A DNA stretch of 64,000 nucleotides from Faecalimonas sp. (lineage in GTDB: Bacteria > Bacillota > Clostridia > Lachnospirales > Lachnospiraceae), in assembly GCA_029264305.1 (NCBI GenBank), contig JARICA010000009.1:140971-204970 (forward strand). Direction: 5' to 3'. The notes beneath the pieces are model-generated. The model did no database searches, was not told where the DNA came from, and worked only from the letters and a program-made list of their open reading frames with translations. The translations under genes and the position numbers were made by a program. Below, piece after piece: positions 27,239-31,288 of the stretch (position 1 is the stretch's first letter; each line of letters begins with the position of its first letter).

Positions 27239-27385
27239 ATTTTTATCTCCTTTATAATTTGATATAATCACTCTAACAGAATGAGCAAAGAATTGCAAGG
27301 ATAAAAACTATTGACAACACATCAAAAAGAGATAAAATAAAATAATAGAAATGGAAGAAAACTGTAAAAGAAAGGGATAACAGTT

Positions 27386-28375
27386 ATGAATATAAAAAAA
27401 ATTAAGTTAATTTTATTGGTAGTTATGTGTGTTTTTGCGCTTGCAGGATGTAAGAAAAATGTAGGAGCAGAGGAAGATAACCCAGTTAAGTCGGAAAAAG
27501 AAGAAACGCAAGTTACATATAAGTTTGGTTTTTCGTGTGTGGCCAAAGATAATCCGTATTATATTACATTAGCAAATGCTATCTGGGAAAGTCTTCAGGA
27601 AGGCGGACATACAGTAATAGGAATGAATAAGGATACCCACTTAAGTTCTGCTGAACAGATAGAACAGATTAATGAAATGATACAACAAGGAATAGATGCT
27701 ATTTTTCTTGCACCTGTGGATTGGAAAGAGATTACGCCAGCATTGGAAGCTTTGAAGAAGGCTAATGTAAAGATTATTAATATAGACACAAAAGTGGAAA
27801 AACTAGATTATGTGGATGCTTATATTGGATCTGATAATAAGAATGCAGGAACAGTTTGTGGAAAAGATTTAGTTGAACAATGCAAGAATGGCGGTAAAAT
27901 TGTTATTTTAGAATGTCCTACAATGAATTCGATTAATGAAAGAATTACTGGATTTGAAGAAGCTATAGTAGGGAGTCCTTTTGAGGTTGTAGCAAGAAAA
28001 AATGTTAAAGGTGATTTGACACTTGCGAGAGAAGAAACAAAAAAAATTTTAGAAAAGAACAACGATATTACTGCGATAATGTGTGGAAATGATCCTTCAG
28101 CAATAGGAGCTTATATTGCTGCAAATGAACTTGGAATAAAAGATATTAAGATTTATGGAGTGGATGGTTCACCAGAATTGAAAAAAGAATTAGAAAAGCC
28201 AAACACACTCATTGCCGGAACAGCAGCACAATCACCTATTAATTTAGGCAAAACAGCAGTAAAAGTTGCTTTAAATATGTTGAATGGTGAAGAGTATGAG
28301 GAAGAAACATTTTTGGATACATATTTGATTACGAAAGAAAATATTGAAATGTATGGAACGGATGGTTGGCAATAG
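27386..28375 (+). CDS. Sugar ABC transporter substrate-binding lipoprotein (RbsB-like)
   Basis: Lipobox LAGC; periplasmic-binding-protein fold sequence GFSCVAKDNPYYITLANAIWE...IIQQGIDAIFLAPVDW...GVDGSPELK. Confidence 0.88.
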   Translation: MNIKKIKLILLVVMCVFALAGCKKNVGAEEDNPVKSEKEETQVTYKFGFSCVAKDNPYYITLANAIWESLQEGGHTVIGMNKDTHLSSAEQIEQINEMIQQGIDAIFLAPVDWKEITPALEALKKANVKIINIDTKVEKLDYVDAYIGSDNKNAGTVCGKDLVEQCKNGGKIVILECPTMNSINERITGFEEAIVGSPFEVVARKNVKGDLTLAREETKKILEKNNDITAIMCGNDPSAIGAYIAANELGIKDIKIYGVDGSPELKKELEKPNTLIAGTAAQSPINLGKTAVKVALNMLNGEEYEEETFLDTYLITKENIEMYGTDGWQ

Positions 28376-28392
28376 AAAAGAGAGGAAAGTAT

Positions 28393-30084
28393 ATGAAACA
28401 ATGTAAAGGGATCCCGTTTCCTTTAGGTGTTACTGTAAAAGAAGATTGTGCTAATTTTTCCACAACAGTACAAAATGCAAAGGAATGTTTCCTTTTATTG
28501 TATAAAAAAGGCGAGATTACTCCTACATTTGAGATTGAGATGCAGGAAAATCGTGCTTTTGGAGAGATTAGAAGCATTATAATAAAAGGTATGGATTGGG
28601 CTCAGTGGGAATACAATTATAAAATAGATGGAAATATTGTGACGGATATATATGCAAAAGCGATTACAGGAAAAGAAGAGTGGTTAGGAGAAACTTCGAC
28701 TTTAGTAAAAGGGAAAATTCTAATGGATTCATATGATTGGGAGAGGGATGAGCCTCTCCTTATTCCTGAAAACGAGGTGGTTGCATATAGCCTTCATGTA
28801 AGAGGGTTTACAAAACATAAATCATCGAAAGTTAAACATGGTGGAACGTTTTTGGGCGTGAAGGAGAAACTTTCATATTTAAAAAAAATGGGCATCAATC
28901 AGATACATTGTATGCCAATATATGAATTTGAAGAAAAAGGTAGATATACGAATTATTGGGGCTATGGTCCGGCATTTTATTTTGCTCCAAAATCTTCGTA
29001 TGCAGCTACGAAAGATGCTGTATGCGAATTGAAAGATTTAGTAAAAGCATGTCATAAAAATGGTATAGAGATGATACTTGATTTACCGTTTACCCCAAGC
29101 GTACCTAAGCAAATGATGATAGATTGTATTCGGTATTATAAAATAGAATATCATATAGATGGATTTATCGTAAATCCGTTTCATGCACCTTTTAAAGAAT
29201 TACAAGAAGATCCACTATTAAAAAATACGAAAATATTAAAAAAACAAGATGATTTTCAAAATACTATGCGTCGATTTTTAAAAGGTGATGAGGGGATGAT
29301 TAAAAGTGTGATGTGGTGGACAAGACATATCTCTAAAGAAGAAGGCATTTTTAATTATATTACTACACACACAGGATTTACGCTTGCAGATTTAGTTTCT
29401 TATGATGGAAAACATAATGAAAAAAATGGTGAAAAAAATCAAGATGGACCAGATTATAATTATAGTTGGAATTGTGGAGCAGAAGGACCAAGCAGAAAGA
29501 AAACAGTTATCGCATTGAGAAAAAAGCAGATTAGAAATGCTTTTCTTTTATTGCTTACTTCTCAAGGTATGCCTTGTATTTTGGCAGGAGATGAATTTCG
29601 AAATTCACAGAATGGTAATAATAACGTATATTGTCAAGATAATGAGATTGGTTGGATAAATTGGGGGAATTCAGAAAAGGATCGAGAATTATTGTGTTTT
29701 GTGCGAGAATTGATTTGTTTTAGAAAAGAACACAAAGTATTGCATTTACCAGTAGAATTGCAGGGAATAGATAGCGTTTCGTGTGGAATCCCAGATGTAT
29801 CTTATCATGGAGAAGCTGCGTGGCAAATTCCTTCTCAAATTTCTAGTAGACAGTTAGGAATTTATTATTGTGGAGAGGGAATGGGTGAAAATAGTTGTTT
29901 CATAGCTTATAATATGCATTGGTTGAAACATTCATTTGCTTTACCAGCACTGAAAAATGGGAAAAAGTGGTATCGGGCTGTTTCGACAGATATGGGAGTG
30001 TTGGAAAGCATGGAATTATTAGATGATCAAAGAAAAGTCATGATAGGAGATAGAACAATAGAGATATTTGTAGGGAAGGTATAA
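28393..30084 (+). CDS. GH13 glycogen-debranching (GlgX/isoamylase)-like protein, apparently catalytically inactive
   Basis: C-terminal GlgX scaffold NYSWNCGAEGPS...LLTSQGMPCILAGDEFRNSQNGNNNVYCQDNEIGWINW retained; catalytic motifs degenerate (see findings). Confidence 0.8.
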   Translation: MKQCKGIPFPLGVTVKEDCANFSTTVQNAKECFLLLYKKGEITPTFEIEMQENRAFGEIRSIIIKGMDWAQWEYNYKIDGNIVTDIYAKAITGKEEWLGETSTLVKGKILMDSYDWERDEPLLIPENEVVAYSLHVRGFTKHKSSKVKHGGTFLGVKEKLSYLKKMGINQIHCMPIYEFEEKGRYTNYWGYGPAFYFAPKSSYAATKDAVCELKDLVKACHKNGIEMILDLPFTPSVPKQMMIDCIRYYKIEYHIDGFIVNPFHAPFKELQEDPLLKNTKILKKQDDFQNTMRRFLKGDEGMIKSVMWWTRHISKEEGIFNYITTHTGFTLADLVSYDGKHNEKNGEKNQDGPDYNYSWNCGAEGPSRKKTVIALRKKQIRNAFLLLLTSQGMPCILAGDEFRNSQNGNNNVYCQDNEIGWINWGNSEKDRELLCFVRELICFRKEHKVLHLPVELQGIDSVSCGIPDVSYHGEAAWQIPSQISSRQLGIYYCGEGMGENSCFIAYNMHWLKHSFALPALKNGKKWYRAVSTDMGVLESMELLDDQRKVMIGDRTIEIFVGKV

Positions 30085-30087
30085 TAG

Positions 30088-30732
30088 ATGAAGATTGGAT
30101 TAAATTCATTTCAACTAAAAATAATTGCAGTTATTACCATGATAATTGATCATGTGGGATTGTTTTTCTTCCCGCAATATACAATTTTTAGAATTATTGG
30201 GAGAATTTCATTTCCTATATTTGCTTTTTTGGTTGTGGAAGGCTTTTACCATACAAGTAATATTTTGAAGTATATGCTTCGATTAGGTGTATTTGCAATT
30301 TTTTCTGAAATTCCCTTTGATTTGTTGACGACAGGAAGAGTTTTAGATTTACGTCATCAGAATGTATTCTTTACTTTGCTTATAGGAGTGATTCTCTTAT
30401 ATTTTTATGAGAAACAGTATTCTAAATTTTCTAAAGTTAGTACAGTTTTTCTTATTATGCTTGCGGGAGATATCTTTAGAACAGATTATGGCGCGTGGGG
30501 CGTTTTGATGATTTTTTGCTTTTTTATTTTTAGAGAACGGTTGTTAGAAAAAATTGTTAGTATTTTAGTGATTAATGTATTTGTATTTGGAAATATTCAA
30601 ATGTTTGGTGCATTAGCACTTTTGCCGATTTGCTTATATAATGGTAAAAAAGGAAAAGGGTATAAATATTTCTTTTATTTTATATATCCAGTGCATTTAT
30701 GGATTATATGGGCGATAAAAATAATAATATAG
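30088..30732 (+). CDS. TraX family membrane protein
   Basis: LKIIAVITMIIDHVGLFFFP...IIGRISFPIFAFLVVEGFYHT...FSEIPFDL. Confidence 0.88.
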   Translation: MKIGLNSFQLKIIAVITMIIDHVGLFFFPQYTIFRIIGRISFPIFAFLVVEGFYHTSNILKYMLRLGVFAIFSEIPFDLLTTGRVLDLRHQNVFFTLLIGVILLYFYEKQYSKFSKVSTVFLIMLAGDIFRTDYGAWGVLMIFCFFIFRERLLEKIVSILVINVFVFGNIQMFGALALLPICLYNGKKGKGYKYFFYFIYPVHLWIIWAIKIII

Positions 30733-30745
30733 GAGCGAAGACGGA

Positions 30746-31288
30746 ATGAAAGCATGGAAACATTTTTGTACAATTACACACCATAAAGTTTTAGTTATGA
30801 AGTACTGTTTTCAAGTGGGATTGTATAGACAAGGATTGTTGCATGATTTATCCAAATACAGTTTTTCGGAATTTTGGGTAGGCTGTAAGTATTATCAAGG
30901 AACGAGAAGCCCAAATAATGCAGAACGAGAAGCAATTGGATATTCAAGTGCATGGTTACATCACAAAGGAAGAAACAAACACCATTACGAATATTGGATT
31001 GACTATGGTATTGGAAAAGAAAAAGGATTGGTAGGAATGCCTATGCCTAAAAAATATGTTGTAGAAATGTTTATGGATAGAATAGCAGCATCAAAAACAT
31101 ATATGAGAGAAAAATATACGGATAGAAAACCACTGGAATATTATGAACAAGGGGCAAAATATGTGAGAAAAATGTTGCATAAAGACACGCAGGAATTACT
31201 CGAAACTCTTCTGAATATGCTAGCGGAACAGGGAGAAAAAATTACATTTGACTATATTCGAAAAGAAGTATTAAATAAAAAAGAGTAA
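30746..31288 (+). CDS. DUF5662 family protein
   Basis: HHKVLVMKYCFQVGLYRQGLLHDLSKYSFSEF...AWLHHKGRNKHHYEYW; family recalled, not searched. Confidence 0.6.
   Translation: MKAWKHFCTITHHKVLVMKYCFQVGLYRQGLLHDLSKYSFSEFWVGCKYYQGTRSPNNAEREAIGYSSAWLHHKGRNKHHYEYWIDYGIGKEKGLVGMPMPKKYVVEMFMDRIAASKTYMREKYTDRKPLEYYEQGAKYVRKMLHKDTQELLETLLNMLAEQGEKITFDYIRKEVLNKKE

Follow-up and report, generated by a model that had tools for sequence, protein, structure and literature searches.

Plant ISA2 is a noncatalytic isoamylase that enters a complex with ISA1, whose activity it increases (PMC12892837). Maize ISA1 carries a border lobe in which variants at R504, N561, W578 and N628, sites distant from the catalytic site, are without activity; of these residues, W578 contacts glucan in secondary binding site 2 (SBS2) (PMC12510319). 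The sequence of site 2 is missing from plant ISA2, in which site 1 is kept (PMC12510319). For bacteria, a survey of gut commensals counts homologues of glgX, for example two in Blautia obeum, and the available portion of its text makes no mention of a check of their catalytic residues (PMC10395257). A search of the literature, covering open-licence PMC text, returned no earlier description of a bacterial GlgX homologue that has lost these residues, a form that we refer to as dead GlgX. To our knowledge, no bacterial noncatalytic isoamylase was known before, and dead GlgX would be the first.

The gene considered here lies in a window of 64,000 nucleotides, which is the whole stretch of DNA that was analysed. 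It forms an unbroken ORF of 563 aa that begins with the ATG at 28393, ends with the stop at 30084, and has a good ribosome site, GAGGAAAG, upstream of the ATG. The gene, the parts of its product and the adjoining genes are as follows.

27386..28375, + strand: sugar-binding lipoprotein gene (Peripla_BP_4), 17 bp upstream of the dead GlgX gene and beside it in 42 loci
28381..28389, + strand: ribosome-binding site AGAGGAAAG, read directly, preceding the ATG at 28393
28393..30084, + strand: homologue of GlgX/isoamylase (GH13_11), predicted to be dead; intact ORF, 563 aa, assigned by clade and selection
28393..28707, + strand: N-terminal (CBM48-like) domain, residues 1-105, aligning to the isoamylase N-terminal domain
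29080..29097, + strand: degenerate region I, DLPFTP; D230 kept, Asn replaced by T234 and His by P235
29095..29160, + strand: site of the missing domain B, gapped in 100% of degenerate copies
29161..29181, + strand: degenerate region II, GFIVNPF; Arg replaced by I259 and the nucleophile Asp by N261 (29173-29175)
29233..29256, + strand: degenerate region III, ILKKQDDF; acid/base Glu replaced by K284 (29242-29244)
29269..29619, + strand: putative border-lobe/secondary glucan site residues R293, N342, W359 and N409, matched by spacing
29347..29670, + strand: most constrained segment, residues 319-426 (C-terminal barrel half, NYSWNCG...GNNNVYCQDN), pooled dN/dS 0.021
29368..29385, + strand: degenerate region IV, HTGFTL; His326 kept, stabiliser Asp replaced by T327
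30088..30732, + strand: TraX-like gene, after a 3 bp gap
30746..31288, + strand: DUF5662 gene, after a further 13 bp gap; found in 49 loci

A sequence-only reading of this DNA had placed the protein on the GlgX/isoamylase scaffold, and this assignment holds. The window protein scores 308.7 bits against TIGR02100 (E 6.7e-92), short of the equivalog cut-off of 640.9 bits, and its best solved relative when searched as a single sequence is plant isoamylase 1 (E 2.5e-75). With a profile of dead GlgX the ISA1 match reaches E 3.5e-125, and TreX and GlgX also score high. Homology extends across the N-terminal domain, the barrel and the C-terminal domain of the GH13_11 fold family, and is beyond chance; the N-terminal CBM48-like domain was not called by Pfam in the window protein.

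Residue equivalences were set by alignment to characterised or solved isoamylases and to active GlgX. The same reading had proposed that the motifs of regions I to IV are degenerate, that all three catalytic residues are lost and that fewer residues separate region I from region II than in active enzymes, and the alignment bears out each point. The positions of the Asp nucleophile, the Glu acid/base and the Asp stabiliser are occupied by N261, K284 and T327, so that no Asp or Glu is found at any of the three, and the domain B that would link region I to region II, approximately 47 residues, is deleted. Only D230 and H326 survive among the eight diagnostic GH13 residues. As aligned, the window protein is without all three catalytic residues, and its predicted loss of alpha-1,6-glucosidase activity is well supported.

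The relatives of this protein fall into two sharply separated sets. All eight diagnostic residues are kept in 66 of 194 aligned relatives, the other 128 are degenerate, and none lies in between. Among the 125 full-length dead copies, which are approximately 560-640 aa long, no more than three of the eight residues are retained and the nucleophile and acid/base are never retained together; at least four of the five conserved catalytic residues are lost clade-wide, which is the measure applied to ISA2. The nucleophile position holds Asn in 80 of the 125 and the acid/base position holds Lys in 43. The motif IAE[AP]WD is missing in every dead copy displayed, with residue placement in region III being uncertain where copies are gapped. 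A tree built from 119 sequences places the dead set on one side of a branch with an SH-aLRT value of 100, which shows a single origin. Omitting the columns of residues 226-334 leaves this grouping unchanged, so the lost motifs are not its cause. The best reading of these alignments is that the catalytic site and domain B were lost once, early in Lachnospiraceae. Assembly error was considered as a source of the dead state and rejected because independent genomes share it.

The gene order gltX-uvrD-DUF1292-X-DUF5662, where X is dead GlgX, gltX encodes glutamyl-tRNA synthetase and uvrD a UvrD-like helicase, is conserved in most of the loci read, even where identity has fallen to 34%, in Agathobacter ruminis (L080). 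Comparison of these loci demonstrates vertical inheritance at a fixed position. In the window, the lipoprotein gene shares its strand with dead GlgX across the 17 bp gap and the two are probably co-transcribed. As the lipoprotein, dead GlgX, TraX-like and DUF5662 genes all lie on one strand with short gaps, they probably form one operon. In a simple scan the best promoter-like site is at 27311-27338, ahead of the lipoprotein gene, although such sites are no commoner there than in shuffled sequence. DUF5662 is the most constant downstream partner. The gene for the TraX-like membrane protein was detected between dead GlgX and DUF5662 in just five of the loci compared, which points to recent insertion or repeated loss. 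The lipoprotein is mostly faster-evolving than dead GlgX and is an orphan, since no ABC transporter gene adjoins it in the window; its gene was not found in most of the more distant loci compared (L072, L074-L076, L078 and L080). An operon with glycogen genes was also considered and rejected, the neighbours being gltX, uvrD, DUF1292, the sugar-binding lipoprotein, TraX, DUF5662 and luxS.

Most close pairs of dead copies give dN/dS values of 0.05-0.08 by the Nei-Gojobori method, the highest being 0.16. When pooled by segment, the values are 0.088 for the N-terminal domain, 0.047 for the first part of the barrel, 0.040 for the former active-site core, 0.021 for residues 319-426 and 0.083 for the C-terminal domain. 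These substitution patterns demonstrate strong purifying selection on dead GlgX, which is strongest at residues 319-426. A single copy among approximately 130 is broken (L064 4971-6845, from a draft genome of [Ruminococcus] faecis); the break falls at a homopolymer run and reflects either a mistake in the draft or a genuine loss of recent date. The sequence-only reading had deduced selection for a noncatalytic role, to be checked by alignment, by a search for an orthologous clade with the same losses and by the state of the relatives. That deduction is now well supported, since the catalytic positions hold no Asp or Glu, the clade is conserved and its members are not decaying.

The distribution of both forms was assessed in 298 genomes, at least 90% complete, of the family of the window, taken as Lachnospiraceae from named orthologues. 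The window protein is matched in 244 of them and active GlgX, judged by score, in 103. Classification by E-value gives 140 genomes with the dead form only, the window's own among them, 91 with both forms, 12 with the active form only, 54 with neither and one that is ambiguous. The dead form is present in approximately 231 of the 298 by this score-based count, with residues read directly in 128 sequences. No dead form was seen outside Lachnospiraceae; relatives read from other families of the order retain all residues. GlgP and GlgC each occur in 293 of the 298 genomes, and glycogen should therefore be available to bind in nearly all. Nearly all of the 54 genomes without a detected GlgX-like protein, active or dead, also have GlgC and GlgP, mostly with a single GlgP, and dead GlgX is therefore not essential for glycogen metabolism. 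A second GlgP copy is found in 93 of the 140 dead-only genomes versus 10 of the 54 with neither form (odds ratio 8.7, shared ancestry ignored). As ancestry is uncorrected, this association is a lead only. One active GlgX, unlike the dead form, is found a few kb from a same-strand GlgP gene at G013:C22:20162-26556.

What the dead copies have preserved is as uneven as what they have lost. For columns conserved to at least 95% in active enzymes, they keep only 2 of 42 in the core of regions I-III but 31 of 36 in residues 319-426, a segment that holds counterparts of three of the ISA1 border-lobe residues. By alignment, R293, N342, W359 and N409 of the window protein equal R504, N561, W578 and N628 of maize ISA1. 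In the rice ISA1 chain the 57/17/50 spacing of the maize sites is matched by R493, N550, W567 and N617, and these align with the same four window residues. R293 is kept in 121, N342 in 125, W359 in 116 and N409 in 125 of the 125 dead copies (93-100%), whereas W359 is present in 44 of 66 active GlgX proteins. Four residues known from the isoamylase border lobe are present, including W359 at the position of the SBS2 contact W578, and such retention of a border lobe with a candidate secondary glucan site favours glycan binding by dead GlgX. Most of these residues are conserved in active enzymes too, and they may therefore be retained partly for folding.

We consider it moderately probable that dead GlgX is a glycogen-binding pseudoenzyme, a paralogue of GlgX/isoamylase that arose by one loss, is kept by selection, and serves as a noncatalytic subunit or scaffold for a glycogen enzyme. 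Through the retained border lobe and the secondary glucan site in it, the protein would bind chains of glycogen or maltodextrin but leave them uncut. The sequence shows no evident signal peptide, consistent with a cytoplasmic protein, and dead GlgX would act in the cytoplasm by placing or regulating a glycogen enzyme, much as ISA2 acts toward ISA1 in plants. The likeliest partner would be the phosphorylase GlgP, or active GlgX where it is present; GlgP is the best candidate because it is almost always present and its second copy accompanies dead GlgX. Active GlgX as an obligate partner was rejected, since with 140 of 298 genomes having the dead form only, a complex with an active isoamylase cannot be general. 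Against a glycogen role, dead GlgX adjoins no glycogen gene. Non-catalysis and selection are the firm and well-supported parts of this explanation; glycan binding and the partner we infer from the conserved residues and gene content, and the mechanism is its least certain part. More tentatively, and with somewhat less than even confidence, we propose a family-wide bacterial pseudoenzyme, independent of ISA2, that binds glycogen via the border lobe and controls phosphorolysis.

Alternatively, the fold might be maintained for a partner that has no part in glycogen metabolism, for instance the lipoprotein, whose gene is probably co-transcribed, or the DUF5662 or UvrD neighbours, with the protein acting as a protein-protein regulator or scaffold that binds no glycan. 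The conserved neighbours, none of which is a glycogen gene, would suit such a role, as would the closely spaced lipoprotein gene that adjoins in 42 loci and the loss of the -1 subsite residues. However, the lipoprotein is probably extracytoplasmic and is not found at most of the distant loci listed above despite the presence of dead GlgX, and conservation of the border lobe and of the Trp that contacts glucan exceeds that of the rest of the protein. We regard this explanation as rather unlikely. An enzyme with a rebuilt active site and a new activity is a poorer candidate still, with only a small chance of being correct. The former active-site core is itself under purifying selection, the clade has its own conserved polar residues (for example K200, E347, Q391 and D460), and 97 of 125 dead copies have Glu where region I normally has Asp, all of which could be read as signs of a new function. 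The former catalytic positions, however, vary widely across dead copies, and domain B is gone. We know of no alternative GH13 mechanism that fits such an enzyme.

Persistence of debranching through unrecognised or partner-supplied residues has been weighed against the gene content of the window's own genome, which has GlgC, GlgB, GlgP and MalQ. Active GlgX, pullulanase and a GDE_C protein were searched for in this genome and not found, and some debranching activity therefore seems to be needed. The same genome encodes, however, a cyclomaltodextrinase-like GH13 protein of 680 aa (L147 6577-8619, C7) with intact motifs, which could cleave alpha-1,6 bonds instead and may cover debranching there. 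With nucleophile, acid/base and stabiliser all lost, residual debranching by dead GlgX is very improbable. Least credible of all is a slowly decaying, functionless pseudogene, for which the broken copy L064 could be cited. This is already contradicted by approximately 130 other copies that are intact over deep divergence, by dN/dS values of about 0.05 and at most 0.16, far from the stops, frameshifts and values near 1 expected of decay, and by the presence of the gene in most of the family.

Lachnospiraceae rank with the commonest bacteria of the gut, and glycogen genes are present in almost every genome sampled. Surveys that count glgX will credit many genomes with debranching where the sole GlgX homologue is dead, and databases would mislabel the protein as a working enzyme. 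If dead GlgX does bind and organise glycogen, this would bear on glycogen handling by the many Lachnospiraceae without active GlgX. A natural protein in which catalysis has been lost but the border lobe kept also offers a test of border-lobe function.

Dead GlgX resembles the GlgX/TreX proteins (TIGR02100) in its domain order, in 31 of 36 invariant columns of the C-terminal half of its barrel and in its C-terminal sandwich. It differs from them in having neither catalytic residues nor domain B, in its length of approximately 560-640 aa versus 700-740 aa, and in scoring below the family cut-off. A comparable case is GlgD, the companion of GlgC in some bacteria, a paralogue of a glycogen enzyme that serves as a regulatory subunit and is also reported from related gut bacteria (PMC10395257). 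GlgD belongs to another enzyme family and another step, and the analogy is functional only. With plant ISA2, dead GlgX shares the GH13_11 scaffold, the loss of the nucleophile and other catalytic residues, and its standing as an ancient clade that selection has kept in organisms with branched-glucan stores (PMC12510319). The profile of dead GlgX nevertheless scores ISA1 at 421.9 bits and ISA2 at 232.2 bits, which by score indicates an origin separate from that of ISA2. An additional beta-sandwich at the N-terminus of ISA2 has no counterpart in dead GlgX, and the alignment starts at residue 217 of an ISA2 chain. Orthology with ISA2 was rejected on the higher ISA1 score, the missing ISA2 N-terminal domain and an origin in bacteria. 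Dead GlgX also differs from ISA2 in having no domain B, in requiring no active-isoamylase partner and in keeping the SBS2/border-lobe residues where ISA2 is without the SBS2 sequence, so that the glucan site retained may differ between these two dead isoamylases. If dead GlgX binds and organises glycogen as proposed, a simpler system would be at hand for testing the debated noncatalytic role of ISA2, and plants and bacteria would each have converted the isoamylase scaffold into a noncatalytic glycogen factor, making at least two such events.
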